The notes below the pieces were generated by a model. The model ran no database searches. It worked only from the letters and a program-made list of their open reading frames with translations, and was not told where the DNA came from. Source: Owenia fusiformis (taxonomy: Eukaryota > Annelida > Polychaeta > Sabellida > Oweniidae). From it: DNA of 64,000 bases. This document shows positions 1-48,649 of the stretch, piece by piece. Each line of letters opens with the position of its first letter. Positions within the stretch are counted from its first letter, which is position 1. A program made the position numbers and the translations under genes. The stretch spans positions 1,245,730 through 1,309,729 of the forward strand of contig CAIIXF020000007.1 of the NCBI GenBank assembly GCA_903813345.2, written 5' to 3'.

Positions 1-3000
1 GATCCTACCCTCCACAGCAGCAGAGATCGGCGACATTTTGGAAATGTGATCTATGACGACACTTGAGTCCAAGTTACCTGTAAAAGATATTAAAATGTAT
101 TTTTATCAGTATACATGCGTTGTAACATAGCATAGTTGTAATGACTGAACCTAAGTAGCCATTATACAAGCGGACATTTTGTTTAAATAACATCTGATCA
201 TGTCTGGATTTCTGTCGCCATTGACCTTAATTCTTCTTGCCTTTTAAGACCCAGATTGCGGTACCATATAATGAACAAAAAGAGGATTCATGAGTAGATT
301 CTGACTCTGTGATCATGTACGCTAGAACCCTTACTTTGTAACTCATGGCTTATCTTGTCCTCTTTGATCATAGTATAACCATCACCTCCATCTGCTAAGA
401 ATGTTGACATGGCGACCTTGTAAACCTTGTCCTCTTTTAAAGCCTCATAGACCGGAGTGTCACAGTCGTCAGAACACTGAACCATAATTGACAACACTCG
501 TGATCCAACAGGCCTCTGTGTACTAGCAACAATCCTCATACCTTAAACAATGGCTATTGGTCTAAATAAGTTGAAATATTCACATTGGAAAAAATATGTT
601 TTGAATTTTTGATACATATACACTGTAGTTTTCCATGGTGAAGCTATGGTGGGGGAAAGGGGGTATTAGACATTGTTTCCTTTAACGTTAGATCATGGTT
701 TTGGGATACATGGGATTTGTTTTTCTTATGAATGCTATATACTAAGAGTTTGCTTTTTCTTGCTATGTCCCATAACATACGGTGACTATCCAGGCCCGGT
801 ACATCGCGAGCAAGTTCCCGTTGATATTGCGAGCAATGAGCTCATGTTAGACATGTTAGAAACGGGGCCTTGAGGGATATGATAAAATATAGTCATAGTT
901 GAAGAACGTCGTTGCTCTGCAATTGAAATAGCCAGTGTACTAATAGCTAGTGTAAAGTTTAATAGCCAGTGTAAAGTTGTACGAAGTTTCACTTAGCAAA
1001 ATTCCATAGCAAATTTCCTATTTCAATATTATCATATCTCTCAAAGCCCTGCTTCTAACATGAGCTCATTGCTCACAATGTCACGGGGCCTAGATAGTCC
1101 CCGTGTAACAACTTTTGGTCCTTTTCCCTTTGACACTTGTGCTTAGGCAATCTGATATGAATTCTATTTTCATCTCATCTGAAGGAGTTTTATTATTTTA
1201 TTTATCATTAATGTAGTATAATCATCTAGTGTTACATTTATAGGGTTGGCACTAGATACCCATTTATTCACAATTTTCGTTCTTTTAGGCCGGAATCTTG
1301 TTGCCATAATGTTTAGTGATGAGTGGTGATGGGAATTGGTCCAGAGTCCTCTACACTGTTATCGCTGAACAAATGACTATACAAATGAGTTCAATACGTG
1401 TAATAAAAAATGTCACAAACGAATTGCCGAAGTTTTGTTGAAACAATTTCGTTTGATTATTGATTAATTTGATATATATATCCTCACCTGCTACCTGGAT
1501 AAAGTTGGGGCGGCCTATAAAAGACAATGAGTGCTCTATGACCTTCCTTAAGGTTGTTCCATTAAGTCCAATTACATCGATTGTATTCCTAAATGGAAGA
1601 ACCCGTTGAATATCTTCAATTGATACCTCACCTGAAATATTATGAGATTTACGCATTTTAAAATGCGATTAGTATTATGGAATTATGTACAATATCACAG
1701 TGGGATCGTGGTTTCTCAATTGCAATGTGAATTTTAGAGTATAAAATATCCAAAGTTAACTTTATGAATTATTCTTACCTCCACCAGTATTAGAAATGGG
1801 TATTCTAATACTCCCTGCGTTCATAATTGCAATTGCGGCGTCGGTCCATCCGTTGGACTCGGTTGCATATTCGAGCATTTTGTGCACCATAGCGTCGGTT
1901 ATCAAATTGCCAAAGTTACATTCTTCTTTCTTACAAGGCTGACTATCCAGCATGACACGCGTGGTGCCAATTACCTTAGACATCTCAGCACTGAATTGTT
2001 CTTTCTTTTCAGTGATTTCCTTCATTACAACTGGATCTATTCAAATATTACTTCAGAATTTCAAACACATGATTAAGAATCACTCAGGTGAAATATGACA
2101 TCAAATGAATACAACTTGATAAAATTCAGGCCAAAATCCAAGACTCCTTGAGCAGCCATCACATACATTCAATGTTCTAAAGGGATTAATGAAATCACAT
2201 ATGATATAAGACGAGCTGGTATCAGCCAGATATGGTAAACACCTATTTCCTGCTGAATGTCCGAATGTCATGTAATCCGGTATGGCTTGGGTCAGATGGG
2301 ATACCTTATCATATGTCATAGCTGCACATAGACGCACGTACTCACCCTTTGTGACGTTTGAACTGAGCAAGATAGGGTTTCCAGTAAATGAAATAATTTT
2401 GCCATCATCATCAAAATTGATTGTTATTTTCCCGAGGTATTTCCCAAACATGTAATCCTGAACAATAAGAACTTTCATGCCTGGTTGAACTTCGGAATCA
2501 ATGACAATGGGGTATGGTCCTTCTACTTGGTCCTCATTGGTTGGTGACGTCCCTAAAACATAGCGGACTATATTTAGGTCTCATATAGTCTGTGTGTGAT
2601 ACCAATCCATGAAAAAGATAACAAACTTCGATTACTAGTATATCTAAAAATGAAATTGGATACGTAGTGGTGATTCCGTCGCACTTATTTTAAAAACGGA
2701 AAGCTATATATCATGGTCTCGCGATGTTGCTACCATTGTATAGAAATGTATGCGTATGTCCACCAACTATCATATCAACACCAATCAGTTGCTTAGCGAG
2801 AGTCATATCAACATCAGCCCCTCCATGACTTAGCACAATGATTTTATTGACCCCTCTGCCCTTTACAGCGTCGACCTCTTTCTGAATGCTCTCATAAGCA
2901 TCTTCAAAAGTGATAGTAGGGCCTAAAATAAATTCGGCGCTTTGTTATTTCACGAATGTGACTTAACGTAGAGGGGGCAGTCATAAACTGAGGATATGAT

Positions 3001-4257
3001 AAATCAAATACTTTTGGATCACCCCTCGTATAATGTCATTTTATTATTATTGAGAGCTAATATATAATGCCTTAAGGAACACTGTTACCTTTTTATGGAT
3101 ATTTTTATGCAAATGAGGATAACAGGGCTGCTCTGTGGGACTAGCATTACTCTCTTCGGAAATTTTCATTGGATAAGTAAATTGATAATTGTAAGTGATC
3201 CAAAAGAGTATTTCCAGTTCCCAGACTTATTGAAATGCTGTATGGGGAATGTACATATCATTTCGAATAATTAACAGAACTAGGCGACTTGAAATCGACG
3301 ATACATTGTACCTGGCTTGGAGATGCTTGGTGTGTCAATAGTGGTATATCCAACAATTGCTACCTTATCACCTCCAAATTCAAACTCTACAGACGGGGGA
3401 ATTCTACCCCTGAGTTGATCATCCTTTGTCACATTAACGTTAGAGCTGATCACTGGGAAGTTAACAAGATTTAGAAAGTTCGCTATAGGAGAAGGGCCAT
3501 TATCAAACTCGTGGTTTCCAAGGACCTATCAACAAAAATATAACAAACTGTGTAAAGGTCCGGCCATGTGCAGTATGGCGAGTGATTTTAGACAGTCATA
3601 TCTTTCACCATGAGTACTTTCTGGCCATAAATACAGTGATATTTTTATCATCATGGGCACTTCACTTGAAATAAAACATATAATTTTAATAAAAAACACT
3701 CTATTTATGCCCAGAGGGTACTCAAAATGAAAGATATAACTGTCTAAAATCACTTGCCATACTACACATGGACCATTGAAATGATTTTTAAATGGAAATA
3801 CGATTTAGCAATTGAAGGTTTATTTTGTGAAAGTATCGAGTTCTAGTTATACCAGTTTAGTTGGCAAATTCAACATTAATGTGAAGAAAAATGAATAGTA
3901 AATGTCTCATAAAAATCTCACCATGGCATCATACCTAAGAAGATTCATAAACCTAGCTATGACTGTTTCACCGAACACAGTATACCAAAGAGTACCCTGC
4001 CATTGATCCCCAGCATCCAACAATAGTACATTTTTATATGACTTTCTGATCTCCTTAACCTGTGTCGCGATTCTCGCTGAACCACCGTAGCAAGCGTTTT
4101 GTGTTGACCAATATTCGGTACAAATGCCACCATATTTGTTGAATTCGTCGAAATGTGCGTGAATGTCGTTAGTGTGTATTATAGTCAGTTCAAATCCAAG
4201 AACAATTTGGGTCAAAGAGATACTTAATAATCCCAATGTAATCATGTAGGAAAACAT
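1..4257 (-). CDS. NT5E-like: Ecto-5'-nucleotidase (CD73/NT5E-like), C-terminus cut by window edge
   Basis: Hydrolyses extracellular 5'-AMP to adenosine at the cell surface; family members are metal-dependent and usually GPI-anchored. Exons in gene order: 3922-4257, 3312-3525, 2734-2922, 2346-2552, 1779-2036, 1488-1631, 335-541, 1-77 (continues off the left edge). All junctions have GT/AG sites and the phases add up, giving 544 residues here against 574 in human. Residues 1-21 form a hydrophobic signal peptide. Metallophosphatase motifs are intact: TNDIHAHFDE, DAGDQWQGT, GNHEFDNG, then GHTHTFLYN near residue 245. The C-terminal nucleotide-binding domain shows GNPILL and FLADGGDGY, the latter matching human FLANGGDGF with Tyr for the adenine-stacking Phe. 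The last visible stretch, ISKMSPISAAVEGRI, aligns with the human ISKMKVIYPAVEGRI. The GPI signal is not in view. It lies downstream of the ABC transporter on the same strand. Confidence 0.95.
779..1105. mobile_element. Hairpin MITE in nucleotidase intron
   Basis: About 327 bp with imperfect inverted arms. The left arm runs from the GACTATCCAGGCCC near 784 to the TTGAGGGATATGATA near 890. The right arm is its reverse complement, from TATCATATCTCTCAAA near 1032 to GGGCCTAGATAGTCCCC near 1100. Both arms contain ATGAGCTCATG-type sequence. It has no coding capacity and sits in the intron between exons 6 and 7. The family was not identified and no clear target duplication was seen. Confidence 0.6.
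3557..3774. mobile_element. Short hairpin MITE in nucleotidase intron
   Basis: A 218-bp inverted-repeat unit with arms of about 65 bp. The left end GGTCCGGCCATGTGCAGT mirrors the right end ending CACATGGACC, and the inner parts GATTTTAGACAGTCATATC and its complement also match. It lies just upstream of the splice acceptor of exon 2. No target duplication is visible, so the boundaries are approximate. Confidence 0.6.
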
Positions 4258-5663
4258 TTCTCAATCTTTTGAGCGAGGTGAAATCGTATCAGTTCAAGAT
4301 GCCTGTCTCGATATAATCCCGTTACCTTATACATTTGTAATTTAGTCTTGATTAAAATCTCATTAAAAACATAGATGTCAACTAGCTGACATGTAACATT
4401 ATTTTTGCTTTACCATGTTTAAATAGTAATAAGAACGCCTGGCTGATTTATTGATAGCCGGTAGAAAGAACAAGTAATCTCTTTTTCCCCTGATAACATT
4501 TTCAATTCTCAATAATTTTTCCCAGGATTTTCAAAGCATTCGTTAGATACCATAATATTTTGTTCAACTTATAACCAATCTTCATTTATAGTTACACCCT
4601 TTCAAAAATGATGGTCAAATTCTGCTAGGCTACCAATTTTGCGTCTTTTTCTGAAAAAGATAAATCATTGAGCTATTTTATGTCAATGTTCTGACTGTAT
4701 TTCAGCCTCAATATCGTTTGTTTTGTCCCTTAAGTGTGCTTACATGTTCTTATTGACACTGTTAATTATAAGATGTCACGTTTTATAATCACGTACGATG
4801 AAAGTGTCCAAATCTACAACCACTCGGAAATATTAGGTCGAGAGAAATTTATTAGTGCTGGATCAAGTCTTCAAAGGTACTTAAGTCGTAAAATGCGAAG
4901 GAAATCTAACATCACGGCTGTATGTATTTTCTGAAAGTGGGGTATTTGTCAATTCTAGGAGCAGACCTGAAGGACCACCGACCCACTTTGGCCGATCTCA
5001 ATAACACCCTGTAAAATTGGACTTTCGACTTTGTTTACACTAATACATAGCAGAAATGAGTCAGAAAAACGGAATTATATAACAATTAAGATATCCTTTT
5101 TTATTAGTACTTGAACGCCCCATAACTTTGTATGACGACCCTCTTTAAATGATATCAATTCAGACAAAACAATTAATTTTACTTACAAGTATTTATACAT
5201 CTCTTTCAGAACTCTGAATATAATATTGCAAATTACATTTTTCAATAAATAAGAACTTACTTATTTTCTTATAAATATAAGCTCATTAAAATGTTCTAAA
5301 AATAATTGTGCATCATTTATAATGTGCATTGTGAGAGGTTATCAGATGCAATAGCAATTGTCAGTGTGATATTCTGTGGCCTCAACTATGGTATCTATAC
5401 ATGACTATACATGTATAGTTTCATTATACTTAAAAGCATTGGAAATTCACAATTATCACATATTCCGTTGTCACTCGGGTAACCAATGAAGTTTGCATTC
5501 TTGCCTTGGAGCCTGCTCTGCTACATGTTGCAAACGCTGGTACGGTTAACTGTTCATAGTTGCATTCACCGCGTTGCACTAACTTGGTTGTACATATAAG
5601 TCGCATCAGCTTTACTTTGTCCCATAAGTTTGTTGCATATATGATTCTCAGGTAGAGGGGGAG
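4258..5663. other. Intergenic spacer between nucleotidase start and transporter end
   Basis: AT-rich spacer of 1.4 kb. It must hold the promoter and 5' UTR of the nucleotidase and the 3' UTR of the transporter, both on the minus strand. I see no exon-like or repeat structure. Short ORFs here lack splice context or homology. Confidence 0.5.
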
Positions 5664-16520
<10,857 letters not shown>

Positions 16521-25509: not shown

Positions 25510-26440
25510 TTCTTCACCTCTTGTCCCATTGGTTTATTGCATGTATATGTAGCTATACTCAAACTCATTACTCACTTCCTGCCCCATTGGTTTGCATGTA
25601 TATGTAGCTATACTCAAACTCATTACTCACATCCTGCCCCATTGGTTTGCATGTATATGTAGCTATACTCAAACTCATTACTCACCTCCTGTCCCATTGG
25701 TTTGCATGTATATGTAGTTACTCAAACTCATTACTCACCTCCTGTCCCATTGGTTTGCATGTATATCTAGCTATACTCAAACTCATTACTCACATCCTGC
25801 CCCATTGGTTTGCATGTATATCTAGCTATACTCAAACTCATTACTCACCTCCTGTCCAATTGGTTTGCATGTATATGTAGCTATACGCAAACTCATTACT
25901 CACCTCCTGTCCCATTGGTTTGCATGTATATGTAGCTATACTCAAACTCATTACTCACCTCCTGTCCCATTGGTTTGCATGTATATGTAGCTATACTCAA
26001 ACTCATTACTCACCTCCTGTCCCATCGGTTTGCATGTATATGTAGCTATACTCAAATTCATTACTCATTTTCTGCCCCATTGGTTTGCATGTATATGTAG
26101 CTATACTCAAACTCATTACTCACCTCCTGTCCAATTGGTTTGCATGTATATGTAGCTATACTCAAACTCATTACTCACCTCCTGTCCCATTGGTTTGCAT
26201 GTATATGTAGCTATACTCAAATTCATTACTCACCTTCTGCCCCATTGGTTTGCATGTATATGTAGCTATACTCAAATTCATTACTCACCTCCTGTCCAAT
26301 TGGTTTGCATGTATATGTAGCTATACTCAAACTCATTACTCACCTCCTGTCCCATTGGTTTGCATGTATATCTAGCTATACTCAAATTCATTACTCACCT
26401 CCTGTCCCATTGGTTTGCATGTAGCTATACTCAAACTCAT
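25510..26440. repeat. 56-bp minisatellite, about 16 copies
   Basis: A tandem array between the two convergent genes. The unit is about 56 bp and includes CCCATTGGTTTGCATGTA, then TATGTAGCTATACTCAAA and CTCATTACTCACCTCCTG. Copies differ by only a few substitutions and two or three short indels, so the array is young or homogenised. Each unit has an ATTGG (inverted CCAAT) and TTTGCAT. Open frames through it are by-products of the repeat. Confidence 0.95.
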
Positions 26441-33100: not shown

Positions 33101-36100
33101 AAAAGCGTTCGTATTTAAACAATTTAAACTGGAGCCGTTACGCAATTGTGACATCATAAATGCGCATGTTCCATTGAATTAAATTCGAAATTTTGGTGGG
33201 ATTCTGATCATTATTTTAAACGTTATCCCAATTTCAACGAACCATGTAAGTGTATGTGTTACGTCTATTACAGCGTATTTGACGATGTCGGGGTACATTT
33301 AATTTTTTTTTGTTTAAAATATGATAGATCCCATCAAACTTTTCAAAGAAAGATAATTTCACTGAAATGCAAATAAAAAATACTTCAAGATGATATACAA
33401 GGCATTAACATGACAAAATGTCACCACTTAGTTAGGTCATCGAAGGTCAAATGTCAAATCTTAAGTCAAATCTAAAGTCAGATTTGAACTTCTGAGAACA
33501 CGTAGATGATTTTGAAATTTTTTTTAGTCAATTTGAAGCCAGTTGAAAAAAGACCTTTTTGACCTTGAGAAGGTCATTGAAGGTCAAAGGTCAAATCTAA
33601 AGTCAGATTTGAACTTCTGAGAACTTGTAAAGTCAAATTTCAACTTCTGAAAAGATGTTGATGATTTTGAAAAAAAAATTGGTCAATTTGAAGCAAGTTG
33701 AAAACAGAACTTTTTGACCTTTTTTTACCTTGAGAAGGTCATTAAAGGTCAAATGTCAAATCTTAAGTCAGATTTGAATTTCTGAGAACATGTAGATGAT
33801 TTTGAAAAAAAAATTAGTCAACTTGAAGCAAGTTGAAAAAAGACCTTTTTGACCTTTTTTGACCTTGAGAAGGTCATTGAAGGTCAAATGTCAAATCTAA
33901 AGTCATATTTGAATTTCTGAGAACATGTAGATGATTTTGAAAAAAAATTAGTCAATTTGAAGCAAGATGAAAAAATACCTTTTTGACCTTTTTGACATTG
34001 AGAAGGTCATTGAAGGTCAAATGTCAAATCTAAAGTCAGATTTGAATTTCTGAGAACATGTAGATGATTTTGAAAAAAAATTTAGTCAATTTGAAGCAAG
34101 TTGAAAAAAGACCTTTTTGACCTTTTTTGACTTTGAGAAGGTCATTGAAGGTTAAATGTCAAATCAGTCAGATTTGAATTTCTGAGAACATGTAGATGAT
34201 TTTGAAAAAAAAATTTAGTCAATTTGAAGCAAGTTTAAAAAAGACCTTTTTGACCTTTTTTGACTTTGAGAAGGCCATTGAAGGTCAAATGTCAAATCTT
34301 AAGTCAAATCTAAAGTCAGATTTGAATTTCTGAGAACACGTAGATGATTTTGAAAAAAAATTTTAGTCAATTTGAAGCAAGTTGAAAACAGACCTTTTTG
34401 ACCTTTTTTGACCTTGAGAAGGTCATTGAAGGTCAAATGTCAAATCTTAAGTCAGATTTGAATTTCTGAGAACACGTAGATGATTTTGAAAAAAAAAATT
34501 GTCAATTTGAAGCAAGTTGAAAACAGACCTTTTTGACCTTTTTTGACCTTGAGAAGGTCATTGAAGGTCAAATGTCAAATCTAAAGTCAGATTTGAAGGT
34601 CAAATGTCAAATCTAAAGTCAAATCTAAAGTCAGATTTGAATTTCTGAGAACATGTAGATGATTTTGAAAAAAAAATTAGTCAATGTGAAGCAAGTTGAA
34701 AAAAGACCTTTTTGACCTTGAGAAGGTCATTGAAGGTCAAATGTCAAATCTAAAGTCAGATTTGAACTTCTGAGAACATGTAGATGATTTAGAAAAAAAT
34801 TGAAGTCAGTCTAAACAGTATTTGTTAAGTTATAGGAAGTTGTAAGAAATTGTTACAGACGCCGGACGCCGGACGCCGGACGCCGGACGCCAACCTCCAA
34901 CCTCCAACCACCAACCGCCGTCGCAAAAAAACGGAGACCATAACAATATGTCACCACTTTTGGTGGTGACATAATAAAACTAGTTAGCTTTTCAAATAAG
35001 GCAGAGATTAACACTTAAAGCTGAGATTACCCCGCATTTTCCGAATTGTCCCAAGGTCCGTGCACGTCGTAATTATGTCTGATTATAGCATTATGAAATT
35101 AGAAAACGAGGATTGTGTATACATGGAGGTAAAATATTGAGATTCAGACACCGTGGCTTGCTTTAATTTCTCAAAGTATAGAGGTGACAAATCACATTTT
35201 GATTTATCAGGATTCTTTTTTATCTAGCTTATGGGATGGAAGATGCTCTTCCCTATTTGTGTAATTGGACATTTGAAAGAAAGCCAGTGGGGCTTGGCAC
35301 AAATGATTCTGGCCCAACTTGACCCCTTTTACTATGGGCATCAAACCCCAAAAGCTATCAAACCCCAATAGTCCAACTGATCAGTGTATAATGCGAGGCC
35401 ATGTAAAGTTCTTTAAAAAAGATAAAAGACGTGTCAGCTATGCACAGAACAAAGTACAGTTGCAGTTGAGGATGCCAAAATGTCTCATCTGACGGCCCGA
35501 ACAACGAATTCAAAGAACAGAGATGTGTTTAATTGAATATCACAGATCTTATTTACTAAGACAAGATGTTTACCTCAGGGAGGATATGTCAGGAAAGTAA
35601 ATACCAACGATCTGCAAAAACGACAGTTATTCAATTCAACTTGGAGCTATCATTTGCTTATTCTTGCTAGCAGAATCGACCAGAGAACAAGCTGGGAAAT
35701 TATGTAGCTTTGCATTTTATATCTAATTGTAGTATATATGTAAAACCAGAAAACCATCAAGAACATGCTGATATTGCATAGTCACTTTTAATACGTTGCA
35801 TGGGTTTGATCTAACGGGAACGTAATTGAAAAGCCAGACAATATTCAATTTGCTTCTACAGTCTATAATAGCGAACTGATTTATAATTTCGCGGCATGTA
35901 GGCCATGTGGATTGTTCTTCAAATGAGTTACAATTTCACAATGGTCACAAACAAATTGAAAATAGCCAGTCGAAATATGAAGATGATTGTTGTCATGATG
36001 AATGACATCATTATGCAGCATCAATTTCGATACGGATCTTTGAAAGAGTACGTGGAAACACATTTTACTAAAAACGTAAATTACTTGTGCCATTGTGCGC

Positions 36101-39100
36101 TGGTTTTCAAATGCTGTCTCGTCTGCTTCGAGATTACAAATCTAAAATTGAAGCAGGACAGCTCCGTATGTTTTTCAAACTTTTTGAGAAGCCTCAATTT
36201 ACACGTCCCGCACTTATTTTGTGAAAAATAAACTAAAATACTTACATCCTAATAACATAGCGAATATTCCGAAGACCTTCTCAGCGTTGGTATTTGGACA
36301 GATGTTCCCAAATCCTATGGACGTCAAACTTGTAAATGTAAAGTACAACGCAGTGATATACTTAGTCTTTAATGGAGGCCCACTACTTGTATCGTTGGGA
36401 AGATATGGGTTGTTTGTGTCCCTTGCTAAAGCATCAAGCCAACTTATTGGCGCATGTAACGTCTGGCGTTCAACGTACGCGATGGCGTAGAATATACACG
36501 CCAACCAGTGAGCAATAAGGGTGAAAATCGCCATCAGTAACAACAGGACAGCGGCTCCGTATTCTGAATACTGGTCGACTCTCCTCGCTACTCTCAACAA
36601 TCGAAGCAACCGGGCAGTCTTTAGGACACCCGTGATTGTCATTGTCTGTAAAATAACACACAGATAACATTTTATTTATAGCGTAACGCGTAATGTTTTA
36701 AAAAAGAATACCTTGATTTTTAAAGGTTTAACATGGAGGAACCCTCTGAAAGGGTGTACTCAATGCAGGAAGAGAGTCGTTAAAACTTAACTTCCGGTTT
36801 ACATTTTAAACATATTATTAAGACCAATAGGGATATGCAATGTACAACCTCTCGAACATTGGTCCTATAATTGCATGACATTCGAATCAAATATGGTGAT
36901 ATGATATACTCGTATATAACTTCAATACTGGGTAAAACATCTCCGATAGTTCGTACAAATCAGATATAGCAAAGGAAAAAATGAAACGTTGCAAAGGCAA
37001 CTTAGTCTATAACTTAGCCTATTTAACGATGACTTATTCAAATATATATTAATTGGCGACAAGTATAAACGCCACACGTATGTCTTGGAATAGGGAATGA
37101 ATGTAATTGAATCGAATGCGAATTCTACCGACTAAGCCCAAAGTTGTAAGTAGCACGATATCCGTTGGGTAAATTCTCATAATTACTAGATCTAGCAACG
37201 TAAACATGCAATGAATTCTATTCCAAAATGTCAGGATATCTAAATAAAGCTGACTTACTTATTTTTGTTAGATAACAATATCATTCTGAGAAATGAAAAG
37301 CTTAATAAAATGTCTTTACAGAGAGCCACGCTAGAAATTTCATTGAGTTTCATACTACTGTTTGCCTTATACACTCTGCACAGTAACGATAATTGATTTG
37401 ATCTCCCTTCCGTAATTTTTATTCATAATATGGAACACGAACAGCTTTTAGCTATAGACTTGCCATTAGTGGAGAATGGATCGTAATGTGATTATATAAG
37501 GACACCAGATTATATAATATTGACAAGATCTATGAGAGATGCTATTGTCGATGTCTGAGATCCATGATCGCCTTTAGCTCCAACGCTTCTACCAACTGCT
37601 TCTGTACCTTCATACTGTTACTCCAGACTTAATCAATAGACCAGATGCGAGTAGAAATAACCTTGATTTACGTCATTAAATATTCAAAATTCATTGTATT
37701 TGAAATCTACATTTAAAAGTACATCTAGAAATATGGTTTTGAAAATTATTTATCAACTTTGAAAATTTAATTTTTGGGGAAAATGTGATTTCTAGTTCGG
37801 GGAGATTCCCCATAGACCCCATGTTACAAATAATATTTTATTTTACCGGACATATTTCAGTTTGCATATCTATTAGATACATAAGGTGATATGAACGTTG
37901 AATCACTAAAACTGATAATATTTAAGTTAAAAGGGGTGTTTCTACTATACCCCCATGCTATCTGACCCGAATGAGCCACCTGGTGGTGAAACTGTTAACT
38001 ACCTACTCGCATCTTGGTTATTAGATTTCTAAAGTTAAAACGATTTCGATACCAACTCTATGCGATGCATGTCTCCATTGTGATCTCATTCAATGATTTC
38101 AAATAATGGCCAATTTTGGTTCATACATAGCGCATAGAAGTAGATGGCAAATCACACTTACGTCACTAGTTCCCGAGCCAAAGAGCAACAGGTCAAATGG
38201 AATAGCTGCAATGGCATCAATGAGAAACCAGCTTTTCACATAATTTACTGCAATTTTCTGAGGGTCAGACTCGACTTCACCATTAGCAACATACGTGGTA
38301 CGAAAGTTGATCAGAATGTCCGCTATAAACATCACATCCACAATGAGGTCGATGATGACAAGTGGATCGGCTTGATTGGTCTTCGCATTTTGGAGCCTCG
38401 TGGCTGAGTTTTGATTCAGCTTCATTCTAGCCTCGTCCTCGTTGAGGAGGAAGGCGGCGACGTACGGGGTGAATACAGCAGTGTAAAGCACGAGCAGCAG
38501 AATCATCCAATCCCAAACTGCCTTAAAGGGCGAGTAGTGGAGAATGATGCATTTTGGCACACTTCTTGTTTGAGGGCGCCATTCTTGCGCCTGGTCAACC
38601 GTACTGGTTTCGTTATCAGCCTCACCATTGTTACTTTTGTCATCTTCTTCTCCAGAGTCTTGTTTGAAGGAAGTCTGAAACACATAAAACATTCCAATAA
38701 ACATTTAAAACAATTATATTTTATACATCGAGGTCATAACAACATCCTTACACTTTGTTTTTCTCCTCATCGCCATTTGCCAAAATATATGAAAGGAGGT
38801 TTGTTTAAGAATAAGCCACAGTAGCATAAAAGCAAATGATTTTAAGTGATATGCCATGATATCAATACCTTTTATGATTGGTCGTAAAGAGGTATACAAT
38901 TTACACAGTTTATATACGGAAAACAATTAATGGGCGGCTATATTCATTGGATTTCGGCATTTGGTTGCCATGATTGTCGATTCATGCATCAATGCGAGTG
39001 AGTTGGAGGTGTATCCCGAAATTCATGGTATATCTTTGATTTTTGAAGCTACGAATTCAAACAATAATATGCTTTATAAATACTGCATTTTATATGTCAT

Positions 39101-45000: not shown

Positions 45001-46141
45001 TATGGTTGCATCAAAAAGCCTATATCAATGAAATGCTGCTCCTACAAGATTTCAATAGTCAATAATATCAATACATCATAATTTTGTTGTTTATTTTCTG
45101 AATGTGAATGCTTCTACTTTACCCCAGTGACTGTAATCGCATCCTTTCTATAAATACATTGACATACTGTAGGACGTTGATCCTTGCCTACGGTAATGCC
45201 TCTCCGCATCTACCGTATTATTAGTAGACCTGTTTTGAAATATTCTTAATCTTAGGTTTCAGAAAAGATGGTATCAGTAGCTAATATATAGCAGAAGATC
45301 ATGCCATCTATTTGCAGTATATCGTTTTAAACTTATTCTCCATGTTGCATTGAATACTTTTTCAAATGCTAAAAGCGGAATTCGATACGTTACAAGTACA
45401 TTTTGATATTGTTTAACTTCTATAATCACAATCAAATTGTTCACATTTAACTAAGGGAATTGCTGATATGTGATAATGGAAAAATCATCCCTGTAGTCAA
45501 ACTGTTATTCACCTGAGAGTACAAAATACGAGTTGTATAATCCATAGCCAACGGGAACGTGCATCTAGACGTATGGAATCCTATTGGGTAATAAATATCA
45601 TTTGATGAATAACCCAAGGGGCATCAGTCGCATTTTAATGAAAATAACAAAGTAACTTGGCATACATTTTGATGATTAAATGTCAAAGTAACTGCGAATG
45701 ATAACATGATAACTGCAAATATAGGTTTAAAGTATCCAAATACAGGGGGCGGAGACGCATGGAGTATTTTTGTTTGAAAGCAGAGGTAGGTGTAGTTTTA
45801 TTAAGTACAGTGCGTTTTACTTTACTAGTTACTAGTTTTTCTAGTATGTGGGGTAAACCAAAGATATGTTGTGATGTTGAACAAAATTCTGTTGTTAACC
45901 CCACTTTTTGTGTGTCAATTTTAACCATTGAATGTTTCCCCCATGTATAATGAGCATATTGGCAGATGAGGAAGTACTAAAAAATGTTGTCAGACGACAA
46001 AATAAAACTACATCTACATACTTTTATTGAATAAGACATGCCGTTTCGTATTATTTCATGTGTTTACGTGACGTTAAAATATTCTGTTCGCGTTCCCAAC
46101 CCCTGAAATATCCCCATGTCGAGAAGTGGTGTAAACAGTAG

Positions 46142-47789
46142 CACCCTGGGTATAGTCTGTCACGTGACTTCATGGATGACGTGTGCGCGAGTGATTCGCA
46201 TTTTCTTTCGCTTGAGGTTTGTAATCACACTTTTTACATGTTTTAAGATTTTGTATCTCTGTGAAACTTGTCCCGTACCATCAATGTCTGAAGACGATCT
46301 AATTCACCAAATATCTCATCCAAGCTTGTCCCGGTTAAAGAGAAATTCGCACTTTTGTGTCTCGCAAAATGACGTGTGCGCGAGTAAATCGAATTTTACG
46401 AAGGATGGGTGCGCGAGTCTAAAATATTTTTATTCACTTGAGACAATTCTGCAAGCTAAGGCAGAATACAACTCACGTGACATTTGTTTTTGTCATCTTA
46501 AAGTAGTATGTTAAAGAATAGTTTGCTATTTTGTAGATGTTTCATGTATGGCACATACATGTCTACGTTTAATGACAATAAATGTTTTGAAATAGCTTGT
46601 AGGGCTGTCCGGCATTGCAGGTGAATTAAAATTTGAACCAAAAATTGAATTAAATTTTTGGCGGTCTCATAAAACCGGCAGCATATTCATTTATTGACAT
46701 CCCATACAAGGGGGGGGTCAGAGTTGTTATGTGGTTACTCGGCATCCGCCACGATCAGAACCATGTAAGGAATAGTAAGGGGAAGCCCATGATACCAAGT
46801 AATATCAAATAATTATAGGAGCTTCTAACTTCTTCCGCATCCCCACCCTTGGTATACGCAGCTGACAAAATGGATCGGTACGGGTCAAAAGCTGGACCGG
46901 TACGGGTTAACGGTTTTATTTGAATTTAAAACAGCTATAACTTGCTCAATATTGACTTCTTCGTATCTAAGTTGAAATATATGATCCCTCCGAATGATTT
47001 TAAGTACCCCCAAAGTTCACCCGTACAGGTCCAGCTTTTGACCCATACCGGTCCATTTCGTCAGCTGCGTATACCAAGGGTGGGGATGCGGAAGAAGTTA
47101 GAAGCTCCTATAATTATTTGATATTACTTGGTATCATGGGCTTCCCCTTACTATTCCTTACATGGTTCTGATCGTGGCGGATGCCGAGTAACCACATAAC
47201 AACTCTGACCCCCCCCCCCCTTGTATGGGATGTCAATAAATGAATATGCTGCCGGTTTTATGAGACCGCCAAAAATTTAATTCAATGTTTTGGTTCAAAT
47301 TTTAATTCACCTGCAATGCCGGACAGCCCTACAAGCTATTTCAAAACATTTATTGTCATTAAACGTAGACATGTATGTGCCATACATGAAACATCTACAA
47401 AATAGCAAACTATTCTTTAACATACTACTTTAGGATGACAAAAACAAATGTCACGTGAGTTGTATTCTGCCTTAGCTTGCAGAATTGTCTCAAGTGAATA
47501 AAAATATTTTAGACTCGCGCACCCATCCTTCGTAAAATTCGATTTACTCGCGCACACGTCATTTTGCGAGACACAAAAGTGCGAATTTCTCTTTAACCGG
47601 GACACGCTTGGATGAGATATTTGGTGAATTAGATCGTCTTCAGACATTGATGGTACGGGACAAGTTTCACAGAGATACAAAATCTTAAAACATGTAAAAA
47701 GTGTGATTACAAACCTCAAGCGAAAGAAAATGCGAATCACTCGCGCACACGTCATCCATGAAGTCACGTGACAGACTATACCCAGGGTG
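46142..47789. mobile_element. Young palindromic transposable element, 770-bp arms, CAC ends, 5-bp target duplication
   Basis: Two near-identical inverted arms of about 770 bp (46142-46911 and 47020-47789) surround a 108-bp spacer. The differences are few substitutions and length changes in a G/C run. The outer end is CACCCTGGGTATAGTC on both arms. The five bases AGTAG occur immediately outside both ends, a clean target-site duplication. The same 128-132-codon open frame appears in each arm simply by symmetry and resembles nothing. Arms contain ATGACGTGTGCGCGAGT-like boxes repeated about three times. CAC ends with a 5-bp duplication recall Transib-type transposons; the family is an inference. 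Confidence 0.85.
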
Positions 47790-48649
47790 AGTAGAAGGAA
47801 CATGCTTGGAACACGCCTTGAATTTCAAAGGTATGGAGTTCTCATATGATTTGGATTCAAACTGGTTCGCAGGTACGCTGTAATCGCGCTGACTTGGAAT
47901 TCTCCCATAGCGCGTTTTGGCTTGTTTGGGGCCCGTTTCCAAATCAGTTTATTTTTTCGAAACAGAAGTGTATTTTTTCTCTATTGAGTCCTCTAGAGGG
48001 ATAACTCTCTGTCTGTTCATTCGCCAATGTTTTGGAATTAATGGAAAGTTTTAAATATCAGTGTTGGGAATTGAACAGAAAACCATTCAGACACGCAACA
48101 TTTAGGGAGGAACTCAAAAACATAAGCAGATATCCCCTTCGCATCGCCGATGGGTTTATGTTGATTTTGCGGCATGCACTTACTGTAAAGGTTTTTAGCC
48201 TTTCCCTCCAATCAATATCCCCATCCCCAATCAATATCCCCATCCCCCTCAGCTTTATTTGTTCAATTTGTTTGTAACTCTTTAAGGGGCAGAATATTGA
48301 CATCAGCAATAGGTCCTCTTATATAATCACTTGTAGCTCGATTTCTAAGGAGTCAATTCATTAGCGCATGGCACATAAGAATTACACTGAACGTTTGACA
48401 TGAGAACTACTTCTTGTTTTTGCTATAGATTTCCAAATATTGCTAAATGACATAAAGGAAGTGTATTGGAAAATATATCTCCCTCGGGATAAATCCTATA
48501 TCCAAAGCCAACCGTACATACCAGATAATCCCAAACATTCTATCTTGTAAGATTCTAGAATTTTAAAAATCGATAAAGATTAATTCAAAAACTTTAAATT
48601 TGAATTTCTTCACTTTCTTCACCTCAAGAATTTTTTTTAATATAGTCAT

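Follow-up and report, generated by a model that had tools for sequence, protein, structure and literature searches.

Galileo, a foldback-like transposon of the P superfamily in Drosophila, has terminal repeats that are very long and vary in length, and in it internal sequence, and transposons inserted into one repeat, join both repeats (PMC4168063). The part of that paper concerned with this structural variation offers gap repair with template switching as its explanation (PMC4168063). In sae2-deleted yeast, according to the relevant section of PMC10622511, breaks near imperfect inverted repeats lead to inverted duplications, and mismatches in the repeats are corrected. As for the enzymes that might move such elements, passages of two further papers describe a CAC tip and 5-bp duplications in Transib, ProtoRAG and the protostome RAG-like transposons (PMC7204232), mostly CA..TG tips and duplications of 2-5 bp in the related CMCT transposons, and a branch of hAT, hAT5, that is defined by 5-bp duplications (both PMC12730594).

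Where the end product alone survives, the origin of very long inverted repeats is hard to trace. In the genome of Owenia fusiformis we find a family of elements, A, whose asymmetric, partly extended and fully palindromic forms coexist as near-identical copies, and in which the turning point of the palindrome is narrowed down to a few tens of bases. The account that joins our results, in which A is mobile, a second element B is nested within it, and the palindrome arose by backward copying at B, is in our judgement very probably correct.

The starting point was the window, the whole stretch of 64,000 nucleotides that was analysed (C7:1245730-1309729; G+C ∼35%), in which positions 46142-47789 form a 1648-bp near-palindrome. 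The first-pass annotation had described here a near-perfect palindrome of 1.65 kb with arms of ∼770 bp, a 108-bp spacer and AGTAG directly outside both ends. The palindrome (arms 98.5% identical, with two gaps), the arm length and the flanking AGTAG are all as described, but the arms are separated by 103 bp rather than 108. Read on either strand, the outer ends are CACCCTGGGTATAG. The repeated GTGCGCGAG boxes reported in the arms are real and belong to three imperfect 29-bp repeats per arm, all of which lie within the ∼327-bp part that is common to the ends of the family; the box is a possible protein-binding site. Not visible at that stage was that the centre of the palindrome is itself a second, nested foldback element. 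The features, with coordinates in the window, are as follows:

46137-46141, + strand: left target-site duplication AGTAG (from the sequence; 5-bp duplications occur family-wide)
46142-46911, + strand: left arm of the palindrome, consisting of the left-type arm of A and the left stem of B (arm comparison)
46142-46468, + strand: 327-bp terminal inverted repeat, common to both ends of the non-palindromic form
46142-46167, + strand: left terminal 26 bp, CACCCTGGGTATAGTCTGTCACGTGA (genome-wide tip search)
46176-46204, + strand: subterminal repeat 1, with a GTGCGCGAG box
46369-46397, + strand: subterminal repeat 2, with a GTGCGCGAG box
46402-46430, + strand: subterminal repeat 3, with a GTGCGCGAG box
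46844-47082, + strand: nested foldback element B, 239 bp, with ends CACCCTTGGTATAC, at the palindrome centre
46912-47014, no strand: 103-bp spacer between the arms, within B
47060-47094, + strand: turning region, the last 23 bp of B followed by GGGATGCGGAAG
47015-47789, - strand: right arm, the left arm copied inverted
47501-47529, - strand: subterminal repeat 3, right arm
47534-47562, - strand: subterminal repeat 2, right arm
47727-47755, - strand: subterminal repeat 1, right arm
47764-47789, - strand: terminal 26 bp, right end
47790-47794, + strand: right target-site duplication AGTAG (from the sequence)

The 26-bp end of this palindrome recurs throughout the genome. We searched 498 Mb in 525 contigs and found 144 ends with at most two mismatches (67 and 77 on the two strands) and none with the reversed control, which excludes chance. 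A second list, limited to perfect matches preceded by a pyrimidine, holds 62 ends, and a search with the left arm returned at least 40 places at 99-100% identity, these being the 40 scored among 1396 first-look candidates and including some that are the two arms of one copy. From these 62 ends and a listing of 100 of the 144 we assembled a partial inventory of 46 two-ended copies, in which L002-L008 are excluded as repeats of L009-L015, and L013 and L031 are the same copy. Exact 5-bp target duplications flank 43 of the 46 (31 of 34 in an earlier set); the copies lacking them are L022, L042 (6 bp, AACGTT) and L069. The duplications are varied in sequence and mostly AT-rich, and in 23 of the 43 copies the next base is G (P ∼1e-7 relative to base composition), which points to a mild target preference.

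A is a real, young, non-autonomous family of DNA transposons, presumably cut-and-paste and of the ordinary foldback kind, with an unusually clear record of palindrome formation. Many copies with the same ends bear out the earlier reading that the element is mobile, young and non-autonomous and has inverted repeats of exceptional length, and the genome search with the arm that had been proposed as a check did yield many copies with identical ends and varied 5-bp duplications. The cut-and-paste mode is read from these duplications, because no transposase was found in the copies read. The window copy encodes none: its two frames of more than 120 codons are mirror images of each other in the arms and match no Pfam family. 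A scan of the window against Rfam gave nothing at the gathering threshold. Searches of open-licence papers found no description of family A; the strings CACCCTGGGTATA and CACCCTTGGTATA occur there in three papers, whose titles have nothing to do with transposons.

Most of the A copies examined are not palindromes. Among the 46, 33 are non-palindromic, and 26 of these have terminal repeats of 317-333 bp that are 95-99% identical, except in L026 (83%). The typical asymmetric copy consists of a left inner arm, a 239-bp B unit and a differing right half. Five copies have extended arms of 367, 504, 514, 577 and 735 bp at 99.2-99.8% identity, and these arms look younger than the 327-bp repeats (∼97%). 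Eleven copies are palindromes with arms of 800-830 bp and a total length of 1600-1660 bp. The remaining arm lengths are 163 bp (L048) and 281 bp (L069), and 406 bp (L042) and 676 bp (L011) in two interrupted palindromes.

The unit at the centre of the palindrome has a history of its own. The tips of B, CACCCTTGGTATAC, equal those of A in 12 of the first 13 bases, and exact ends of this type number 748 genome-wide (control, 0). Two B copies, in L017 and L018, were read from end to end and likewise have a foldback structure, and the hairpin of B, folded as a single strand with four extra bases, has an energy of -73.7 kcal/mol, compared to -24.5 for shuffled sequences (z -14.8). All five other B copies inspected, three outside A and two elsewhere within A copies, have 5-bp duplications (AATCA, TTATA, ATATT, ATGAG and GTACA). 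At its main site in asymmetric A, B has ATCCC on both sides in direct orientation, exact in 20 distinct copies and with substitutions in L027, L063 and L067. B is thus a nested foldback transposon of a related family, inserted in A with a 5-bp duplication. The duplication is the one line of evidence for this insertion, because no A copy empty of B at that point was found (the empty-site pattern had 0 matches at up to two mismatches). A candidate third tip family, CACCCTNGGTATAW, gave 81 matches compared to 15 in the control and was rejected, as by eye 54 of the 81 are CACCCTTGGTATAT, which we read as B ends decayed at CG. L070 is a 4.7-kb copy of B with another element nested at 483-4601, which has 1.1-kb repeats and broken frames.

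The junctions of B show which form of A came first. We compared these in 38 distinct copies (39 rows, since L013 and L031 coincide), 23 asymmetric and 15 palindromic. In the 15 palindromes, B is bordered by CTTCCGCATCCC and by its reverse complement, exactly so in 14 and with one substitution in L060; in the window copy, GGGATGCGGAAG to the right of B matches, as its reverse complement, the CTTCCGCATCCC that flanks B on the left at 46832-46843. The ATCCC duplication around B is gone from the palindromes, including the window copy, and the left half is present twice. Genome-wide, the left junction of B occurs 65 times at up to two mismatches, as 16 facing pairs (15 of which were fetched, the pair on C2 near 1596600 being left out) and 33 single junctions, two of which belong to one copy, L031. 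Because only asymmetric copies still have the duplication around B, theirs is the older form. The palindrome is derived from it: the right half was replaced by an inverted left arm, with the turn within the terminal repeat of B. The terminal 23 bp are identical between the two arms of B, and in 11 of the 15 palindromes the right arm of B retains its own alleles at the first three sites, counted from the tip, that tell the two arms apart, which places the turn in these within the last 23 bp of B. In the other four, left-arm alleles occupy the right arm of B from the tip inward, at one site in L019, two in L028 and three in L017 and L042. Such graded replacement would follow from trimming or correction of the annealed arm ahead of further copying, or from conversion that proceeded inward at a later time.

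Two other explanations of the palindromes were considered, and we regard each as highly improbable. If the palindrome were ancestral and the asymmetric copies were decayed palindromes, one could understand that palindromes are numerous (16 facing pairs) and that 11 of them are uniform in length. The asymmetric copies, however, own a separate right half, and decay cannot create a duplication such as the exact ATCCC around B in 20 distinct copies. Palindromes are also hard to sequence and assemble, and this general difficulty might suggest that they were produced by read or consensus errors. Such an artefact is at odds with the presence of palindromic loci at 16 separate places, with the real substitutions that separate the two arms, and with the target sites, as an exact duplication borders 12 of the palindromes on both sides and differs in sequence among all 12. 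Derivation from the asymmetric form is the reading that we follow below. The 12 different duplications allow either that the palindromes moved as such or that they formed in place.

Diagnostic sites at 282-334 distinguish the left from the right ends of A. Right ends of asymmetric copies are right-type in 18 of 22 cases. Left-type right ends occur in the other four (L025, L031, L055 and L059), all of them arm-extended copies; some right-type sites occur in left ends in three of 19 rows (18 distinct), namely L032, L059 and L069. At sites 282-304, both arms carry the same haplotype in all 12 two-armed palindromes, although one arm of L061 is gapped at 282. Three different rare recombinant haplotypes are found in the palindromes L012, L028 and L060, and that of L060 is also found at the left end of L032, an asymmetric copy. 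L021, L028 and L062 have private variants common to both arms, and the divergence between arms within a copy is lower than that between copies (0.0057 versus 0.0070; 10 copies, permutation P 0.0002). The data indicate that palindromes were born repeatedly or that, after a single origin, their arms underwent conversion, and fit both alike. Two variants recur in right arms across palindromes (207 in L021 and L065; 490 in L017 and L028), which argues for some common descent and against fully independent births. Over the outer 280 bp there is no majority difference between the left and right repeats, which points to ongoing exchange.

These results suggest how the palindrome may have been built. 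A transposase encoded elsewhere, and not found here, would insert A with a 5-bp stagger. The trigger would be an excision gap, or another break under repair, in which the growing strand could copy the left arm and B and then anneal through the hairpin arms of B, so that the left arm would template the second half of the palindrome in a presumed polymerase step. The product would rejoin by way of the 327-bp repeat, so that the 5-bp duplication is kept. The graded replacement in the right arm of B, the partly extended arms and the variants common to both arms of a copy indicate that copying of this kind, or arm-to-arm conversion, happened repeatedly. In the yeast fold-back duplications, as far as the section cited describes them, there is likewise a break near an inverted repeat, an inverted duplication and correction of mismatches (PMC10622511); those events are chromosome-scale, whereas in A the copied segment goes no further than the tip of the element, and its target duplication is preserved. 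The closest published precedent that we found is Galileo, the terminal repeats of which, like those of A, tend to recruit internal and inserted sequence (PMC4168063). From what the cited text gives, Galileo differs from A in its duplications of 7-8 bp and its P-type transposase, A having 5-bp duplications, other tips and no transposase found, and unlike Galileo, the arms of A can lengthen until the whole element is a palindrome, with its turn at a hairpin element nested inside. The coexisting forms of A are a natural series for palindrome building by break repair, and one that could be used to test whether breaks made by a transposase drive such building.

The enzyme that moves a family with CACCC tips and 5-bp duplications would also matter, and we looked for it inside the larger copies of A. 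Chosen frames of L024, L029-L031, L033, L034, L055, L056 and L070 were scanned against Pfam, and other frames were inspected by eye. No transposase between A ends was recognised in the longest copies read, and none of these copies (L029, L031, L055, the B copy L070 and others) was recognised as an autonomous partner. L031 (7.2 kb) and L055 (4.3 kb) were enlarged by other inserts, and four chosen frames from the inserts of L031, L055 and L070 (one from the last, and three from L031 and L070 together) match no Pfam family. By eye, L031:1525-6375 is a nested element with inverted repeats of several hundred bp and broken frames.

Some copies of A do carry coding sequence. The right half of L020 has a C2H2 zinc-finger open frame at 3566-4069 (+), 167 codons from its ATG and read towards one end, with an apparent splice acceptor upstream (by eye), and L034 has a C2H2 zinc-finger frame at 719-1147 (-). 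In full or in part, the C2H2 frame occurs at seven places, all in A by coordinates, five of which were fetched. No close relative of the protein was listed outside A, the rest being at most 39% identical (150 of 2230 candidates scored), so recent capture of a host gene is not seen; the capture could be old. The protein may be an accessory product of an autonomous element that is now missing, or else an exon captured long ago. Reverse-transcriptase frames are found in L056 (Pfam RVT_1, E 1e-28) and, as another such frame, in L024; L030 has a weak RVT_1 piece below the cut-off, and L033 resembles these by eye, although its scanned frame has no Pfam match. L035-L038 are similar in length to L056, L030 and L033 and have the same arm length, and all seven have an exact 5-bp duplication. 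It seems that the sub-family of L056, L030 and L033, and perhaps L035-L038, captured a piece of non-LTR retroposon reverse transcriptase and moved with it.

We weighed four proposals for what moves A and B, and none of these is favoured by the evidence as it stands. The tips of A and B are CACCCTG and CACCCTT, both followed by GGT at positions 8-10. The Transib tip consensus is CACWATG, Transib prefers GC-rich targets, and hAT tips usually begin with CAG. The first-pass annotation had suggested a Transib/RAG-like transposase, or an unknown one, as a possibility; the Transib/RAG link has the CAC and the 5-bp duplications behind it and is otherwise not supported: at positions 4-5 the A tip has CC rather than WA (T and G at positions 6-7 agree), and the duplications of A are AT-rich and varied rather than GC-rich. 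A hAT tip would likewise be expected to start with CAG, not with the CAC seen here. The protostome RAG-like consensus, CACTWMCAAACKTYKBB, has AAA at positions 8-10, which A and B lack (as given in the cited part of PMC7204232). What A does have in common with the Transib, ProtoRAG and RAG-like elements described there is the combination of a CAC tip and 5-bp duplications (PMC7204232), but the rest of the tip consensus differs. The tips and the 2-5-bp duplications of the kindred CMCT transposons described in PMC12730594 also count in favour of such an enzyme. A profile search of the genome for RAG1 gave no match, as it did in every control genome. On balance, a Transib/RAG-like enzyme appears unlikely. 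A hAT5-type transposase, judged by the definition of that branch in PMC12730594, fits the 5-bp duplications of A and B equally well, and hAT dimerisation domains are common in the genome (137 places in a profile search). Nevertheless, no listed hAT gene lies near the listed A or B ends: by eye, the nearest listed hAT place is ∼39 kb from a listed A end, on C8, and ∼85 kb from the 100 listed B ends, which are all on contig C1. We hold a hAT5 source to be possible, if somewhat doubtful. It is a still more tentative suggestion, and probably wrong, that A and B belong to an unrecognised superfamily of animal transposons with CACCCTKGGTATA tips and 5-bp duplications, whose larger members encode the C2H2 protein and in which nested hairpins of the same superfamily repeatedly turn asymmetric elements into complete palindromes that keep moving. 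The 5.0-kb copy L029, finally, has between its A ends an rve integrase, which also shows a chromodomain-type match, and a match to a poxvirus-A32-like ATPase that is weak and below the cut-off, as would be expected if it were the autonomous partner and A a miniature Polinton/Maverick. This we consider highly improbable. The Polinton piece in L029 has its own 226-bp inverted repeats, with A sequence on their outer side, and breaks A at ∼421, where the flanks overlap by 6 bp, which identifies it as a nested insertion. Around six other integrases (L049-L054), the ∼2 kb of adjoining sequence showed nothing of A.

The insert itself is a truncated Polinton/Maverick at L029:919-4243. At least 11 other places have integrase frames that all equal one another in score and in identity to the L029 frame, and the Polinton therefore looks recently active. 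Two opposed Polinton integrase frames, 85% identical to that of L029, lie at C7:1313962-1315074 and 1320534-1321646, ∼4.2 and 10.8 kb past the right end of the window.

The window holds other features besides the palindrome. Exons of an ion-channel protein are located at 36217-38704 (-), the nearer exon found being ∼7.4 kb from the palindrome, and exons of an ABC transporter at 11694-12731 (-). A 55-bp tandem repeat occupies 25514-26423 (16.5 copies, 94% match), and a second tandem repeat, with a unit of ∼135 bp, occupies 33628-34597. By eye, the ∼135-bp unit is also present in the insert of the A copy L034 (1310-2107), and similar stretches are found in L031, L039 and L040; this is perhaps a dispersed element with a tandem array inside it.
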